Origin: Sphingomonadaceae bacterium
GTDB taxonomy: Bacteria > Pseudomonadota > Alphaproteobacteria > Sphingomonadales > Sphingomonadaceae
Assembly: GCA_019245455.1 (NCBI GenBank)
Contig: JAFARM010000234.1
Span: forward strand, 1 to 19,907
Reading direction: 5' to 3'
DNA length: 19,907 bases
A program made the translations under genes and the position numbers. The notes beneath the pieces are model-generated. The model saw only the letters and a program-made list of their open reading frames with translations, was not told the DNA's origin and searched no databases. Positions 208 through 19,327 of the stretch are shown in pieces. How positions within the stretch are numbered: position 1 is the stretch's first letter; every line of letters begins with the position of its first letter.

Positions 208-2040
208 TTACTCGTTAATGACGGCAAATCCAACCGCGCCGTTGACGGCTTCGCCATCGGCCAGTTCCGCCCGGACTTCATGGTTGCGCCGCACCGCCGC
301 GAAGTCGCCTTCCGCCATGCTCGTTCGGAAATGGGCATTGGTTACAGCAATGTCATCCCCCAGCCGCGCGTCGGCGACCAAAGCATCGAGAAATCTGCAA
401 AACTGAGCAGCGGCAAGCGGCAGCGGCGTGTCGCGGCGAAGGAAGCCGAGGTTGCCAATGCCCGGCCGGAACGCCGCCAGCAAGGTCACGGCCGCATCTC
501 CCGCGCCGCGCGCGGCGACCGCCGACTGCAGCCGGTCGGCGTCGGGCGCGGCGTCGCCGGCATACGCGTCGAGCAGCGCCGTCCGCAGCGCATCGTGCCG
601 CGGGTCGGCAATGCGCAGCGCCGCCAGCGGCTCGAACCCGGCGTCGATCAGCGCCGGGCGCAGCAGGCAGGCGGTCAGCACCTGCTCGACCATCGCCGCG
701 CGCAGATCGGGCCGCCGCGTTCGCAGGACGCCGGGGGAGGGGGTGGACCGCTCACCCTTAACCCACGGCGTCCGCTCCGGCCGGCGGAACTGCGCGTAGA
801 AGCGGTCGCGCAGCTCGCTGCGATAGAAGCGCTGCACGGCCGGGTCGGCGATCGCGGCGGCATGGGCGTCGAGGCGGGCCAGGACCGCGGCGCGGCGCTC
901 GGGGGTCGTCGTGTCCGCCCCTTCCGTCTCGCTCCGCCACAGCCGATCGATCAGCGGCTCGGCCGCCGCCAGCACCCGCTCGACCGCTGCCGCCCCGCCG
1001 CTCCGCACCAGGTCGTCGGGGTCCTGTCCCACCGGCAGGGTGGCGAAGCGCAGCGACTTACCCGGCTCGAGCAGCGGCAGCGCCCGCAGCGCCGCGCGCA
1101 GCGCCGCCCGCTGTCCGGCGGCGTCGCCGTCGAAGCACAGGATCGGCTCGGGGGCATAGCGCCACAGCAGCGCCAGCTGCGCCTCGGTCAGCGCGGTGCC
1201 GAGCGGTGCGACGGCGTCGGCGATCCCCGCCTGCGCCAGCGCGATGACGTCCATATAGCCTTCGACGACGATCAGCCGCTGGCTCTTGCGCGCCGCCGGC
1301 CCGGCGCGGTCGAGGTTGTACAGCGTCCGCCCCTTGTCGAACAGCGGCGTGTCGGGCGAGTTCAGGTACTTGGGCTGCCCGTCCCCCAGGATGCGGCCGC
1401 CGAAGCCGATCACCCGCCCGCGCACGTCGCGGATCGGAAACATCAGCCGGCCGCGGAAGCGGTCGTAGGACGCGCGGCTGTCGCCCTCCGGCACGACCAG
1501 CAGCCCCGCCTCGACCAGCCGCGCCTCGCCGTGGCTGGCGAGCGCCGTCTTCAACCGGGTCCGGCTGTCGGGGGCGAAGCCGAGGCTGAACGCCGCCGCT
1601 ATTTCCGGCGTCACCCCGCGCTTGCCCAGATAGTCGCGCGCCGCGCCGCCTTCGCCCGCCAGCCACTCGGCAAAGAACGCGGCCGCCGCCGCCGTCACGT
1701 CGTGGAGGCTCGCCGCCGCTGCCTCGCGCTCGGCCGCGCGGGGATCCGGCGCGGGCATCGCCAGCCCCGCCTCCTGCGCCAGCGCCTTCACCGCGTCGAT
1801 GAACCCCAGCCCCTCCTGCTCGACGGTGAAGCGGATCACGTCACCGTGCGCGCCGCAGCCGAAGCAGTGGTAGAAGCCCTTGTCGTCGTTGACGTAGAAA
1901 CTCGGCGTCTTCTCGTTGTGGAACGGGCAGCACCCCTTCATCTCGCGCCCGGCGCGGGAAAGCTTCACCCGCCGCCCGACGACGCCGGACAGCGACACCC
2001 GCGCGCGCAGTTCGTCGAGAAAGGCAGGGGAGAGGGTCAC
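208..2040 (-). CDS. dnaG: DNA primase DnaG
   Basis: The 610-residue product makes RNA primers for leading- and lagging-strand synthesis at the fork. The N-terminal CHC2 zinc-binding domain has ligands C38, H41, C59 and C62, matching the spacing in E. coli DnaG. The RNA polymerase core follows, with a YDRFRGRLMFPIRD block near residue 195. The Toprim motif VVEGYMDV has its glutamate at residue 260, and CFDGDAAGQ carries D304 and D306. The C-terminal third is the less conserved helicase-binding region. The start is GTG at 2040, whose GTGA overlaps the stop of the upstream DUF559 gene. The Shine-Dalgarno sequence (GGAGG at 2051-2047) is supplied by a palindromic repeat and lies in the 3' arm of a potential hairpin. 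rpoD follows downstream. The length is slightly above the E. coli protein (581 residues). Confidence 0.96.
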   Translation of the reverse strand: MTLSPAFLDELRARVSLSGVVGRRVKLSRAGREMKGCCPFHNEKTPSFYVNDDKGFYHCFGCGAHGDVIRFTVEQEGLGFIDAVKALAQEAGLAMPAPDPRAAEREAAAASLHDVTAAAAAFFAEWLAGEGGAARDYLGKRGVTPEIAAAFSLGFAPDSRTRLKTALASHGEARLVEAGLLVVPEGDSRASYDRFRGRLMFPIRDVRGRVIGFGGRILGDGQPKYLNSPDTPLFDKGRTLYNLDRAGPAARKSQRLIVVEGYMDVIALAQAGIADAVAPLGTALTEAQLALLWRYAPEPILCFDGDAAGQRAALRAALRALPLLEPGKSLRFATLPVGQDPDDLVRSGGAAAVERVLAAAEPLIDRLWRSETEGADTTTPERRAAVLARLDAHAAAIADPAVQRFYRSELRDRFYAQFRRPERTPWVKGERSTPSPGVLRTRRPDLRAAMVEQVLTACLLRPALIDAGFEPLAALRIADPRHDALRTALLDAYAGDAAPDADRLQSAVAARGAGDAAVTLLAAFRPGIGNLGFLRRDTPLPLAAAQFCRFLDALVADARLGDDIAVTNAHFRTSMAEGDFAAVRRNHEVRAELADGEAVNGAVGFAVINE

Positions 2041-2507
2041 TTCTCCCCTCCCGGAACGGGAGGGGCAGGGGGTGGGCTTTCCCCTCCGGGTACGGGAGGG
2101 GCCGGGGGTGGGCAGTCGGCTAACGCCGCAGCAATCGTCCGCAGCACGCCCTCAAGGTTCACCATCACCTCGCGGTTCCAGAAGCGAACCACCCGATATC
2201 CGGCACCTTCCAGATATGCCGTCCGTCCCGCGTCGACCTCCGACGAATGCTGCCCGCCATCCACCTCGACGATCAGCTTCCGTGTCCGGCACACGAAGTC
2301 GGCGATGAACGGCCCGATGACGATCTGCCGGCTGAACTTCGCCCCATCGAGCGCACTACCGCGCAGGGCCTGCCACAGCTTCCGCTCCGCCGGCGTCGGC
2401 GCATTCCGCATCGCGATGGCGCGGCTTCGTTGTTGCCAGGTCACAGGTGATCTGCCCACCCCCGGCCCCTCCCGTTCCGGGAGGGGAGGCGGGCGGCCGT
2501 CGCTCAC
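2037..2507 (-). CDS. DUF559 family endonuclease-like protein, bracketed by palindromic repeats
   Basis: This 156-residue protein has the DUF559 fold, related to very-short-patch-repair and restriction endonucleases. Recognisable parts are NAPTPAERKLWQALR (residues 35-49), ADF with D70, the EVDGGQH block with E81, D83 and H87, and RVVRFWNREV (105-114). The acidic cluster is the expected metal site; activity and target are unknown. Residues about 5-20 and 132-156 are translated from palindromic repeats at 2455-2488 and 2043-2112, so the compact domain is roughly 23-131. The GTG start overlaps the yqeY-like stop and the TGA stop overlaps the dnaG start, so it is translationally embedded in a core operon. 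A later GTG before TWQQRSRAIAM is an alternative start that would skip the repeat-encoded leader. It is probably cargo, or the mobilising protein, of the repeat element. Confidence 0.87.
   Translation of the reverse strand: MSDGRPPPLPEREGPGVGRSPVTWQQRSRAIAMRNAPTPAERKLWQALRGSALDGAKFSRQIVIGPFIADFVCRTRKLIVEVDGGQHSSEVDAGRTAYLEGAGYRVVRFWNREVMVNLEGVLRTIAAALADCPPPAPPVPGGESPPPAPPVPGGEK
2041..2065 (-). promoter_or_regulatory. Repeat-derived hairpin holding the dnaG Shine-Dalgarno sequence
   Basis: On the minus strand CCCCTCCC (2065-2058) can pair with GGGAGGGG (2052-2045) around a short loop. The 3' arm is the dnaG ribosome-binding site, with GGAGG ending 6 nt before the GTG at 2040. Folding would hide it; translation of the overlapping DUF559 gene would open it. 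Confidence 0.5.
2043..2112. repeat. Two tandem family A arms at the 3' end of the DUF559 gene
   Basis: Two near-identical GC-rich arm units, 2043-2076 and about 2079-2112, lie head to tail; each contains a small palindrome (CTCCC..GGGAG). They encode the last 25 residues of the DUF559 protein on the minus strand (PPPAPPVPGGE twice). The inverted partner is at 2455-2488. Just inside the second unit, TGGGCAGTCGGC (2109-2120) is shared with the linker elements in pdhB and pdhC. Confidence 0.92.
2455..2488. repeat. Inverted family A arm at the 5' end of the DUF559 gene
   Basis: This 34-nt unit is the inverted counterpart of the unit at 2043-2076, differing by about one base, and encodes the leader PPLPEREGPGVG of the DUF559 protein. 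With 2043-2112 it brackets the nuclease domain, giving a 446-bp unit (2043-2488) with terminal inverted repeats. Confidence 0.92.
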
Positions 2508-4891: not shown

Positions 4892-7800
4892 TGCCCCGCC
4901 GCACCGACATCTCGTCCATCCTCATCATCGGCGCCGGCCCGATCATCATCGGGCAGGCGTGCGAGTTCGACTATTCGGGGACGCAGGCGTGCAAGGCGCT
5001 GCGCGCCGAGGGGTACCGCATCGTCCTGGTCAACTCGAACCCGGCGACGATCATGACCGATCCCGACCTGGCGGATGCGACCTATGTCGAGCCGATCACG
5101 CCCGCGGTCGTCGCCAAGATCATCGAGCGCGAGCGCCCCGACGCGCTGCTGCCGACGATGGGCGGGCAGACGGCGCTCAACACCGCGCTGGCGCTGTTCC
5201 GCGACGGCACGCTCGCGAAGTACGGCGTCGAGCTGATCGGGGCCGACGCGACCGCCATCGACAAGGCCGAGGACCGGCTGAAATTCCGCGACGCGATGGA
5301 CGCGATCGGGCTCGAATCCCCGCGCAGCCGCATCGCGCACGACATGAGCGAAGCGCTCGAAGCGCTTGAGTTCACCGGCCTGCCGGCGATCATCCGCCCG
5401 TCGTTCACCATGGGCGGGACCGGCGGCGGCATCGCCTATAACCGCGAGGAGTTCGTCCATATCGTTACGACCGGCCTCGACGCCTCGCCGACGACCGAGG
5501 TGCTGATCGAGGAGTCGGTCCTCGGCTGGAAGGAATATGAGATGGAGGTCGTGCGCGACCGCGCCGACAACGCCATCATCATCTGCGGCATCGAGAACGT
5601 CGATCCGATGGGCGTCCACACCGGCGACAGCATCACCGTCGCGCCGATCCTGACGCTGACCGACAAGGAATATCAGATCATGCGCAACGCGTCGATTGCG
5701 TGCTTGCGCGAAATCGGTGTCGAAACAGGGGGTTCGAACGTCCAGTTCGCGGTCGACCCGAAGGACGGGCGGCTCGTCGTCATCGAGATGAACCCGCGCG
5801 TCAGCCGTTCCTCGGCGCTGGCGTCGAAGGCGACGGGCTTCCCGATCGCCAAGGTCGCGGCGCTGCTCGCGGTCGGCTACACATTGGACGAGATCGAGAA
5901 CGACATCACCGGCGCGACGCCGGCGAGCTTCGAGCCTACGATCGACTATGTCGTGACAAAGATCCCGCGCTTCGCCTTCGAGAAGTTCAAGGGGGCGGAG
6001 GCGGTGCTCGGCACGGCGATGAAGTCGGTCGGCGAGGTCATGGCCATCGGCCGCTCGATCCACGAGAGCCTGCAGAAGGCGCTGCGCGGGCTGGAGACCG
6101 GGCTGACCGGCTTCGACGAGGTGCCCGAGCTCGTCGGCGCGTCGGACGAGGAGATCGCCGCGGCGCTGTCGATCCCCGGGCCAGACCGGCTGCGGATCGC
6201 GGCGGACGCGCTCCGGGCGGGGTTCAGCGTCGAGCGGGTGCACGCGATTGCGAAGTACGAGCCGTGGTTTCTCAACCGGATCGCAGAGATTGTTGCGGCG
6301 GAGGAGGAGGTGCGGGGCGGAGGACTTGACAATGTTCTTCCCCGTCATTCCCGCGAAAGCGGGAACCCATCTCCAGCGGCCGAGCGCAATGCGACGGCGA
6401 TTGTCCAGCGCGACGGAGGGCGGGAGATGGGTCCCCGCTTTCGCGGGGATGACGGGGTAGGGAGCGAACAGAGCGACGCGGAACGGGCCGCCACCCTCCG
6501 CCGCCTCAAGGCCATGGGCTTTTCCGACGCGCGGCTGGCAAGGCTCGCCGGTGTCGCCGCCGCCGACGTCACGGCCGCCCGCCAGCGCTTGCGCGTCGCC
6601 CCCGTGTTCAAGCGCATCGACACCTGCGCCGGCGAGTTCGCCGCGCGCACCCCGTATATGTATTCAAGCTACGAGACCCCGACCTTCGGCCGCGCCGAAT
6701 GCGAGGCCGAGCCGACGAATGCGCGCAAGGTCGTCATCCTCGGCGGCGGGCCGAACCGGATCGGGCAGGGGATCGAGTTCGACTATTGCTGCGTCCACGC
6801 CTGCTACGCGCTCAAGGCCGCGGGCTTCGAGACGATCATGGTCAACTGCAACCCTGAAACGGTCAGCACCGACTATGACACCGCCGATCGCCTCTATTTC
6901 GAGCCGCTGACCGCCGAGGACGTCATCAAGGTCATCACCCGCGAGGCGTCGAACGGCGAGATCGTCCGCGTGATCGTCAAGTTCGGCGGGCAGCCGCCCT
7001 TGAACCTTGCGCGCGCACTGAAGGACGCGGGCATCCCCATCCTCGGCACCTCGCCCGACAACATCGACTTGGCCGAGGACCGCGAGCGCTTCGCCGCGCT
7101 GGTCCGCGACCTGGGCCTGAAGCAGCCGAACAACGGCATCGCGACGAGCCGCGAACAGGCCGGCGCGATCGCCGCCACGGTCGGCTATCCGGTGCTGATG
7201 CGCCCGTCGTTCGTTCTCGGCGGCCGGGCGATGGAGGTGGTGGAGACACCGGCCGCCCTCGACGCCTACCTCCGCGACAACGCCGCGGCACTGTCGGGCG
7301 GCCCAGTCCTGATCGACCAGTACCTGCGTGACGCGGTCGAGGTCGACGTCGATGCACTCGCCGACGCCGACACGGTGTTCGTTGCCGGCGTCCTCCAGCA
7401 CATCGAGGAGGCGGGAGTTCACTCTGGCGACAGCGCCTGCTCGATCCCGCCGCATTCGCTGAGCCCTGCCGTCGTCGCCGAGATCGAACGGCAGACGGCG
7501 CTCCTCGCCCGCGTGCTCGACGTTCGCGGCCTGATGAACGTCCAGTTCGCGGTGAAGGACGACCAGGTCTATCTGATCGAGGTCAACCCGCGCGCCTCGC
7601 GCACCGTGCCGTTCACCGCCAAGGCGACCGGCATCCCCATCGCCAAGATCGCCGCGCGCGTCATGGCCGGCGAAAGCCTCGCCAGCTTCGGCCTCCAGCG
7701 TCCCGATTGGCAGCACATCGCCGTCAAGGAAGCGGTGTTCCCCTTCGCCCGCTTCCCGGGCACCGACCCGGTCCTCGGCCCCGAGATGAAGTCGACCGGC

Positions 7801-15768: not shown

Positions 15769-15794
15769 GGGGGTGGGTGGCGCGACATGATGGC

Positions 15795-15904
15795 GTCATC
15801 CCCGCGCAAGCGGGGACCCATCTCCTGCGACCAGCTGCGTGGCGACCCACGTCTCCGCCTGGGACGGACGTCGGGAGATGGGTCCCCGCTTTCGCGGGGA
15901 TGAC
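15795..15904. repeat. 110-bp REP-like palindrome between pdhA and pdhB (family B)
   Basis: Inverted 31-nt arms at 15795-15825 and 15874-15904 differ at one position and match the core of the arms inside carB (6340-6457). The centres of the two copies differ. It can form a strong hairpin in the pdh mRNA between the two E1 subunit genes, where such elements often limit readthrough or protect the upstream transcript. Confidence 0.92.
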
Positions 15905-15930: not shown

Positions 15931-17393
<1,463 letters not shown>

Positions 17394-17397
<4 letters not shown>

Positions 17398-17842: not shown

Positions 17843-19327
17843 GTGCCCATTGACATCACCATGCCCGCGCTGTCGCCAACGATGGAGACGGGCACGCTCG
17901 CCAAGTGGCTGGTCAAGGTCGGCGACGCGGTCAAGTCGGGCGACATCCTCGCCGAGATCGAGACCGACAAGGCGACGATGGAGGTCGAGTCGATCGACGA
18001 GGGTACGGTCGTCGAACTCCTCGTCACCGACGGCACCGAGGACATCAAGGTCGGCGCGGTCATCGCGCGGCTGGCCGGCGAGGGCGAGGCGGCGGCTCCA
18101 GTTCCTCCCCCATCGGGGGAGGTGGCGGCGAAGCCGACGGAGGGGGCGGGTCGTGACACCGCCGCGTCCCGCCTAGCTCCCTCCACCGCGCCGGAAGAGG
18201 CCCCGGCGAAGGCCGAGGCGGCTCCCCTCCCGCTTGCGGGAGGGGCCGGTGGGCAGTCGGCTGCCCACGCGCCGCTCACCACTGACGCCGACGCCCCACC
18301 TCCGACCCCTCCCGCAAGCGGGAGGGGAGAAGAGGGCCGCATCGCCGCCAGCCCACTCGCCCGCCGTCTCGCCGCCGCCACCGGGCTCGACCTGGCGCAG
18401 GTGACAGGCACCGGCCCGCACGGCCGCATCGTCAAGGCCGACGTCGATGCGGCGGCGAAGGACGGGGTGCGAGCAGCTCCCCTCCCGCTTGCGGGAGGGG
18501 CCGGGGGTGGGGGAGCGATTAACGTAGCGCCGCCACCCGCACCCCCAGCCCCTCCCGCAAGCGGGAGGGGAGAAGGTGCCGCCGTTCCGGCTTCAGCCAT
18601 TGCTTCCTCCGCAGCCACCCTCCCGCCTCCCGCCGGGGTGCCGATGGAGGCAATCAAGCTGTCCAATATGCGCAAGACGATCGCTCGCCGGCTGGCCGAG
18701 TCGAAGGCGACGGTGCCGCACTTCTACTTGACCGTCGACGTGCGGCTCGACGCGCTGCTGAAGCTGCGGGGTGACCTCAACAAGTCGCTCGAAGCCACTG
18801 GAATCAAGCTGTCGGTCAACGACCTGCTGATCAAGGCGCTCGGCCTGGCTTTGGTCCGGGTTCCCGACGCCAATGTCCAGTTCGCAGGCAGCGAGCTGTA
18901 CAGGTTCAGCCGCGCCGACATCTCGGTCGCCGTTGCCATCCCCGGGGGCCTCATCACGCCCGTCATCACCGACGCCGCGAACAAGCGGCCGAGCGTGATC
19001 GCCAGCGAAATGAAGGACCTGGCGGCACGGGCGAAGGACGGCAAGCTGAAGCCCGAGGAGTACCAGGGCGGCACCGCCTCGCTGTCCAACCTCGGCATGT
19101 TCGGCATCAAGCAGTTCGACGCCGTCATCAACCCGCCCCAGGGCCTGATCCTCGCCGTCGGCGCGGGCGAGAAGCGGCCGTATGTCGTCGACGACGCGCT
19201 GCAGATCGCCACCGTGATGAGCGCCACCGGCAGCTTCGACCACCGCGCCATCGACGGGGCGGTGGGCGCGCAGTTCATGAGCGCGTTCAAGGCCTTGGTC
19301 GAAAACCCGATGGGGATGCTGGCATGA
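17843..19327 (+). CDS. pdhC: Pyruvate dehydrogenase E2 component, dihydrolipoamide acetyltransferase
   Basis: The 494-residue core subunit transfers the acetyl group from lipoyl-lysine to CoA. The lipoyl domain (1-80) has K43 in [10 protein letters not shown]. The peripheral-subunit-binding domain (about 170-205) includes [22 protein letters not shown] and HGRIVKADV. The catalytic domain runs from about 265 to the end, with [20 protein letters not shown] and the active-site DHRAIDG (H467, D471). Both interdomain linkers contain family A palindromes (residues 127-162 and 212-243). The start is GTG at 17843, encoding the usual [17 protein letters not shown]. The stop overlaps lpdA (ATGA). Linkers of E2 are naturally Ala/Pro-rich and mobile, so the insertions need not impair function. 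Confidence 0.96.
18222..18329. repeat. Family A palindrome in the first PdhC linker (108 bp)
   Basis: The left arm at 18222-18253 and right arm at about 18294-18329 are inverted copies with a few differences; total length 108 bp, 36 codons. The left arm reads [10 protein letters not shown] and the right [12 protein letters not shown]. It also shares TGGGCAGTCGGC (18250-18261) with the DUF559-flanking copy at 2109-2120. Confidence 0.92.
18477..18572. repeat. Family A palindrome in the second PdhC linker (96 bp)
   Basis: Inverted arms at 18477-18512 and about 18536-18572; total length 96 bp, 32 codons. The left arm reads [12 protein letters not shown] and the right [10 protein letters not shown], in the same phase as the other two linker copies. 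It lacks the 12-nt extension shared by the other two. Confidence 0.92.

Follow-up and report, generated by a model that had tools for sequence, protein, structure and literature searches.

The stretch of 19,907 nucleotides (nt) analysed here (the window; contig JAFARM010000234.1 of GenBank assembly GCA_019245455.1, from a Sphingomonadaceae bacterium, which is contig C405 of a 2.65-Mb draft assembly that has 430 contigs) carries, between yqeY and dnaG, a DUF559 gene that is framed by inverted copies of a three-block repeat (the "arms"). Gene and arms probably constitute a small mobile unit of about 450-520 bp, with the order triplex arm, DUF559, inverted triplex arm, in which the nuclease would act on the triplex arms; on this explanation small mobile elements of the same class would be widespread, and the window would have one of them. 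Comparison of sequences supports it through the framed unit, its edges and unrelated sites, the covariation of arms with protein, purifying selection on the gene, and the co-occurrence of solo repeats and DUF559 genes.

The framed DUF559 gene and its arms

The DUF559 open reading frame (ORF; 2037-2507, minus strand, from the open reading frame list) has a GTG start and encodes a protein of 156 amino acids (aa), both termini of which are encoded within arm sequence. Its PF04480 DUF559 nuclease domain lies at 2121-2432 on the minus strand (Pfam profile, E 3.4e-35; invariant residues in a 70-sequence alignment, given below). A search for inverted pairs placed the 5' arm (in gene orientation) at 2454-2488, as a hairpin CCCCTCCC-loop-GGGAGGGG with an inner GGGGGTGGG third strand, and found an inner 3' arm copy at 2080-2115 and an outer one at 2043-2077. 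There are thus two inverted pairs, 2043-2077 with 2454-2488 (35 nt, 97%) and 2080-2115 with 2452-2487 (36 nt, 94%), and the left side therefore consists of two arm copies in tandem; the bracketing of the gene by inverted arms that was claimed in an initial annotation of this DNA is borne out. The core palindrome CTCCCGNNNNCGGGAG has 85 copies in the window's genome and none when read backwards.

Framing was measured with a bracket score, the local alignment of the 250 nt upstream of the domain with the reverse complement of the 250 nt downstream; loci scoring at least 20 were called framed, and frames elsewhere within the same loci served as controls. The window gene scores 32.5, versus a maximum of 13.5 in nine control frames of the same locus. 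In the window's own genome 4/5 DUF559 loci are framed versus 0/41 control frames, and in the family set (119 genomes, probably Sphingomonadaceae) 28 of the 29 loci at the top of the Pfam E-value list are framed versus 0/248 control frames. When these first 34 loci are pooled with 61 further family loci, hand-picked from the listed matches and mostly from genomes with several copies, 81/95 are framed (without control frames). Contigs of named genomes (the best 80 of 287 full-ORF relatives, one omitted for its short flank) gave 57/79 framed loci versus 7/10,056 control frames, a set biased towards framed copies because the query was the full ORF with its arm-coded tails. A phylum-wide sample (probably Pseudomonadota) gave 15/28 versus 3/258, and a plasmid collection gave 7/14 (the loci fetched, of 41 matching records) versus 1/280; the framed plasmid loci are four from Deinococcus and one each from Pseudanabaena, Sinorhizobium and Azospirillum. 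The initial annotation had proposed to compare DUF559 with other genes and would have counted DUF559 genes of relatives that lack arms against its idea. The first comparison came out as it expected, since against the 28/29 framed family loci stand none of 30 Vsr genes and none of the 29 yqeY genes with sufficient flank in the same 119 genomes; on the second point DUF559 genes are mostly framed within the family, and many are unframed outside it.

That this pattern arises from chance or from the composition of GC-rich DNA is scarcely credible. The arms are indeed GC-rich and simple, and in one genome (G145) the backward pattern has 42 matches versus 112 for the pattern itself, but the backward-pattern controls are small apart from that genome, and control frames and control genes are negative or rarely positive.

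We note that in three Deinococcus plasmids (L298, L299 and L300) DUF559 occupies differing positions within related hpa gene clusters. The DUF559 genes of cyanobacterial plasmids at L301, L302, L303 and L305 lie near DUF499, DUF1156 or PglX-type genes, and arms there are weak or absent (bracket scores 8.5-17).

The arms are built of a pyrimidine block, a loop, a purine block and a mirror-image purine third strand that usually points inward, which is the three-block build of the BoxC/PIT/TM triplex repeats (a C-rich, a G-rich and a second G-rich block). The third strand was tested at 209 loci (the 95 pooled, 80 contig, 27 of the 28 phylum and seven passing plasmid loci), which have 322 hairpin arms, 276 of them with an asymmetric purine block. 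A perfect mirror match is present in the inward tail of 197 of these 276 arms (A or T being allowed opposite A), compared with 45/276 for a parallel reading, 8% for swapped blocks and 1.3% for shuffled tails; kinship leaves the arms non-independent, and more than 20 block types are represented. Among the 77 family elements (of 86) in which both hairpins were found, 57 have inward tails on both sides. The third strand of the arms thus covaries with the stem, which suggests that a DNA triplex, beyond a mere hairpin, is apparently kept by selection. Triplex formation in solution has been reported for the E. coli BoxC/PIT/TM motif (Holder et al. 2015, PMC4666352), and by their sequence the window-type arms are to be classed as triplex-type. 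The window arms themselves (CCCCTCCC...GGGAGGGG..GGGGGTGGG) depart from the published consensus CCCTCNCCCN3-6GGGNGAGGGN3GGGNGAGGG; some other arms, not counted, are nearer to it.

Enzyme, arm lineages and repeat load

The DUF559 protein is predicted to be an EDxHD/Vsr-like endonuclease and kin of the homing endonuclease I-Bth0305I. The PDB matches of a profile of 70 DUF559 sequences are 3hrl (1.8e-36), I-Bth0305I 3r3p (1.8e-4) and, weakly, PvuRts1I (0.029), and in the alignment R15, W26, F39, D51, E62, D64, G65, H68 and R76 are invariant and E22 and D73 nearly so; in PMC9403480 a DUF559-containing gene is termed an EDxHD member. The YcjD model (PRK09767, NF007294) matches the window protein at 7.5e-23, yet with 80.9 bits versus a 218-bit cut-off. 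The window protein has no match to Vsr (PF03852) in Pfam at E 1, nor in NCBIfam at E 0.01, and two sister copies match the Vsr model TIGR00632 at 17.6-19.3 bits, below its 97.85 cut-off. The gene is under purifying selection (dN/dS 0.06-0.32 in 7/9 pairs, dS being saturated in the other two). A role in anti-phage defence was considered and rejected for the window protein, since no PADLOC model matches either it or YcjD at E 0.01; PADLOC matches of sister copies reach only E 0.003-0.006, and the copy at L001 matches the anti-phage protein ProA at 7.6e-4, where its 17 bits fall short of a 1500-bit cut-off.

The type of arm goes with the lineage of the DUF559 gene, even inside single genomes. Arm similarity tracks protein identity among the 86 framed family elements (Mantel rho 0.33, a value that 0/1000 permutations reached). 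When genomes carrying at least three framed copies are compared, the partner with the most similar arms also has the most similar protein in 129 of 185 clear cases, which are non-independent, and 300 within-genome shuffles of the arms gave a mean of 52 matches (sd 6.6) and a maximum of 70. Arm labels, assigned by our own rules, require 23 changes on the protein tree, which has few columns and many weak forks, versus 42.2 when shuffled. The covariation of arm sequence with DUF559 phylogeny for which the initial annotation suggested a search is therefore present; a unit that is inherited jointly would produce it, so it is no proof of recognition by itself.

Repeat numbers also follow the gene from genome to genome, with phylogeny and base composition only partly corrected in the genome-wide tests. 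Across the 119 family genomes the number of DUF559 matches (weak ones included) correlates with palindrome number (Spearman 0.66, 0/2000 permutations). Among 150 genomes of the phylum a net tailed-palindrome count of at least 10 (the pattern counts overlapping matches more than once) is found in 26/31 genomes with strong DUF559 matches (E below 1e-10) versus 4/119 others, the latter including 15 genomes with weak matches only (p 4e-20); DUF559 is thus present in 26/30 of the repeat-rich genomes of this sample. In seven of the eight families that hold both kinds of genome the DUF559-positive mean is higher, although the result in one of them (f20) depends on one genome, which has 6 versus a mean of 4.3, and f23 is opposite. 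Of the 23 family genomes with at least 50 palindromes, 22 have DUF559 and nine have Y1_Tnp, and DUF559 copies reach ten matches, one of them weak, in a single genome (G091).

The presence of Y1_Tnp bears on the proposal that these palindromes owe their spread to a Y1 tyrosine transposase, as in systems of repetitive extragenic palindromic (REP) sequences and REP-associated tyrosine transposases (RAYTs), which we consider very improbable. The inverted palindrome pairs do resemble REPINs, and Y1_Tnp occurs in 21/119 family genomes. It was not found in the window's own genome, however, nor in 14/23 repeat-rich family genomes, none of 20 fetched Y1_Tnp loci is framed by window-type arms, and the arms have no enrichment of the GTAG or CGTC tags (GTAG/CTAC in 7/81 arms, background 10%; CGTC/GACG in 24/81, background 58%). 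The tag counts rule out membership of the arms in the CGTC or GTAG REPs, and a RAYT as mobiliser in the window is rejected because Y1_Tnp was not found in its genome and none of the 20 fetched Y1_Tnp loci is framed by such arms.

Unit edges, insertion sites and movement

Closely related DUF559 loci show where the unit ends. In six of 13 close pairs the two copies occupy unrelated sites, and their similarity is confined to the stretch bounded approximately by the outer arms (450-520 bp, with edges within 18 nt of these arms). Three of these pairs lie within one genome (L241/L242 in G071, L214/L215 in G031 and L188/L190 in G091), and L223/L241 and L216/L231 are further examples. The sixth, L002/L044, from two species of the window's genus, is 87% identical; in L002 the similarity stops exactly at the arms, and in L044 no more than 6 nt from them. 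The unit thus has terminal inverted repeats, as do insertion sequences and miniature inverted-repeat transposable elements. Of the other pairs, L025/L037 has flanks in common, L207/L210 is a partial match only, and four are syntenic, so some copies seem long resident and others to have moved. We note that in L199/L221, from different genomes, the 5' flank of one copy is the 3' flank of the other, as if inverted at one locus.

The yqeY-dnaG junction, in which the window element sits, could be read in 29 of 30 fetched relatives, where it holds DUF559 in five, at most 46 nt in 12 and other inserts in 12. In G063, of the same genus, the junction is 9 nt long and has no repeat. DUF559 genes that follow immediately after yqeY occupy two positions on the protein tree, one being L003/L236 and the other 7/10 rows of one clade (L032, L042, L239, L206, L033, L191 and L227; support 92/90). 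Another repeat (the TTCGTCCCGAGCGAAGTCGAGGGACG type and variants) lies in the junction at L171, L174, L176, L179, L180 and L184, so that the junction may be a general hot spot. At the fabI-aroC site of L001, G063 has an apparent lone degenerate arm and no DUF559. The L002 site in G063 was rejected as a two-sided empty site: the upstream flank is kept and there is no element, and the downstream flank is unmatched.

A number of observations weigh against a mobile unit with an arm-directed nuclease. Bracket scores fall below 20 in 14/95 pooled family loci, 13/28 phylum loci (a few of which are family members) and 7/14 plasmid loci, and 12/77 (5' arm) and 9/77 (3' arm) family elements have an outward triplex-type tail, in addition to the inward one or in its place. 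The four syntenic pairs (L032/L042, L003/L236, L208/L220 and L217/L243) are syntenic throughout and across genera, which means that movement must be slow. The empty site for which the initial annotation suggested a search exists in so far as the G063 yqeY-dnaG junction is bare, but this may be a loss, because G072, of another and more distant genus, holds a syntenic element there. No signal of target duplication was found, direct repeats outside the arms being as in shuffled pairs (81 elements, arm edges approximate). Solo repeats favour the arms of their own genome's DUF559 only modestly (9/28 in 400 kb sampled from G091 and 4/26 in G000, where simple arithmetic from the share of arms gives about 2.6 and 1.2). 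The initial annotation would have held genomes rich in polymorphic copies and devoid of DUF559 against its idea. Repeat-rich genomes mostly carry DUF559, but G049 (78 palindromes) has none and G136, G166, G171 and G254 have no strong match. Conversely, G041, G014, G103, G129 and G146 have DUF559 and few palindrome matches; beside the G129 gene lie twelve tandem units of 94-96 nt (L130 1840-2930), most with a CCCCTCTTT...AAAGAGGGG palindrome, an AT-richer variant and therefore missed by the palindrome pattern. Finally, a mismatch-repair-like role is reported for the Caulobacter DUF559 protein VsrA (PMC12907096).

The main rival is homing into existing repeats: the arms would spread by other means, and DUF559, as a homing gene, would cut empty pairs and be copied in by recombination between arms. 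The kinship with I-Bth0305I, the EDxHD naming (PMC9403480), and the lone degenerate arm at fabI-aroC in G063 all fit this proposal, as do the outer-arm edges and the lack of a target-duplication signal, which are what copying via arm homology would give. We nevertheless judge it unlikely, since across families the number of repeats goes with the presence of DUF559, an effect not to be expected of a gene that is only a passenger; Y1_Tnp, the sole rival gene class tried, is present in only the nine of 23 repeat-rich family genomes mentioned above, and the best inverted match at 20/20 fetched Y1_Tnp loci is not of the window arm type. The G063 yqeY-dnaG junction, with its 9 nt and no repeat, also speaks against it.

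A house-keeping link, in which a DUF559 nuclease acting in repair or on particular DNA structures helps the cell to tolerate triplex-forming repeats and its gene is kept near them by happenstance, would account for the role reported for VsrA (PMC12907096) and for the copies that are syntenic across genera. It leaves unexplained the paired inverted arms, the arm-specific lineages within genomes, the copies at unrelated sites and the several copies per genome (as in G091), and we consider it improbable, more so than homing.

If gene and arms are instead a mobile unit, the DUF559 nuclease would recognise the folded (hairpin or triplex) arms while they are single-stranded, for example at replication forks, and would nick or cut at that point. 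Copying or insertion elsewhere would follow, either of the whole unit or of an inverted arm pair that lacks the gene, and repair would seal the insertion without evident target duplication. We infer in this way that the nuclease may act on the arms, mobilise solo pairs and drive the spread.

Short pairs in the window, E. coli ycjD and related systems

Three short pairs of arms without DUF559 were found in the window by the inverted-pair search, as the initial annotation had claimed for "the same arms with short centres": 16187-16297 (111 nt; arms 16187-16231 and 16253-16297), inside a pdhB-like frame (15931-17397), and 18222-18329 (108 nt; arms 18222-18252 and 18299-18329) and 18477-18572 (96 nt; arms 18477-18513 and 18536-18572), both inside a pdhC-like frame (17843-19327; names read off the translations). 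A shared 12-mer had been taken to connect two of them with the DUF559 copy. TGGGCAGTCGGC does occur at 2109, 16218 and 18250, with no further copy on either strand of the window, but it is mostly arm consensus: its TGGGCA portion is common to the arms of several other elements, which leaves only about six bases extra. The two pdh copies that carry it may be related to each other. The derivation of the short copies from the window's DUF559 copy is not supported, as their hairpin loops are closer to arms of the L191/L210/L227 lineage than to those of the window gene. It is plausible that these pairs are non-autonomous forms of another, perhaps lost, DUF559 lineage; enzymes of this kind, probably of a lineage other than that encoded at 2121-2432, would have moved them. 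We note that the length of each pair is a multiple of three and that all encode Pro/Ala/Gly-rich linkers.

E. coli K-12 has a DUF559 gene, ycjD. Copy 9 of the 23 K-12 BoxC/PIT/TM motifs, reported at 1351239-1351204 (PMC4666352), lies about 168 nt beyond the ycjD stop (1351407), and the chance that one of 23 motifs lies so near a gene of this size is about 0.003 by simple arithmetic on this single case. Arm-like sequence overlaps the 3' end of ycjD and in MG1655 is seen on the 3' side only; the bracket score of ycjD in strain H240 is 9. By megablast ycjD is present in 3365/5426 E. coli genomes, and matches to motif copy 9 in 5375/5426, at a median of 18 places. A clean empty ycjD site was sought in two ycjD-minus strains, Nissle 1917 and O169:H41 Res13-Lact-PER13-34, and rejected, as these carry efflux-type genes beside fabI or sapF instead. 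In MG1655 the stretch from ycjD to the BoxC repeat contains a second, incomplete 3' end of the gene (L312 2200-2430), and in strain ETEC6 (L315) ycjD is interrupted by IS1.

The element resembles several known systems without coinciding with any of them. RAYT systems have a lineage-specific pairing of enzyme and repeat, as do DUF559 and its arms. In the REP/REPIN-RAYT "REPtrons" (PMC3733652), one small gene likewise has inverted palindromes on either side, and these also form short pairs elsewhere in the genome, so the DUF559 unit works like a REPtron; it differs on two points of REP-RAYT membership, with a DUF559 nuclease in place of an HUH Y1 transposase and triplex-type arms without tag enrichment in place of GTAG/CGTC tags. 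BoxC/PIT/TM repeats share the three-block build, the intergenic position, some inverted pairs and, for copy 9, the proximity to a DUF559 gene, but Holder et al. (2015, PMC4666352) state that no transposase or integrase remnants were ever found around the E. coli sites, whereas DUF559 is tied to the repeats here, and in many of our arms a second hairpin takes the place of the 3-nt loop of the E. coli motif. I-Bth0305I (3r3p) is akin in the sequence of its catalytic domain; DUF559 differs from it in being a single domain of about 105 aa, in showing neither intron nor intein, in having its own repeat on both sides and in occurring at unrelated sites. YcjD and VsrA have the same Pfam domain as the window protein; the former differs in its one-sided arm-like sequence, and the latter has been studied as a mismatch-repair-like enzyme (PMC12907096).

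A broader proposal, to which we give about even chances, is that such units are a new class of mobile DNA, with a single Vsr/EDxHD-type nuclease, triplex ends as substrates and no transposase or recombinase, in which DUF559 lineages and arms co-evolve like RAYTs and REPs, and which is the source of BoxC/PIT/TM-type repeats across bacteria, including those of E. coli K-12 (ycjD). If true, DUF559 units would be an unrecognised kind of mobile DNA and a possible origin of such repeats. In titles and abstract openings of the literature searched, most subscription journals lying outside the search, nothing was found that connects these repeats with DUF559 or with Vsr-like genes. PMC3733652 says of the CGTC REPs, a separate repeat class, that they lack a transposase, so the spread of palindromic repeats without RAYTs needs explaining. 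With one repeat class tied to a single gene family, of which laboratory E. coli has the member ycjD, the question of spread becomes directly testable, and DUF559 gains a candidate substrate.

The window also contains a second palindrome family (the GTCATCCCCGC...GCGGGGA type), with inverted pairs at 6337-6460 and 15794-15904, one pair of which lies inside a carB-like frame. We take these palindromes to be CGTC REP-like, and the coding sequence that follows the tandem units of G129 (L130) is presumably glyS-like.

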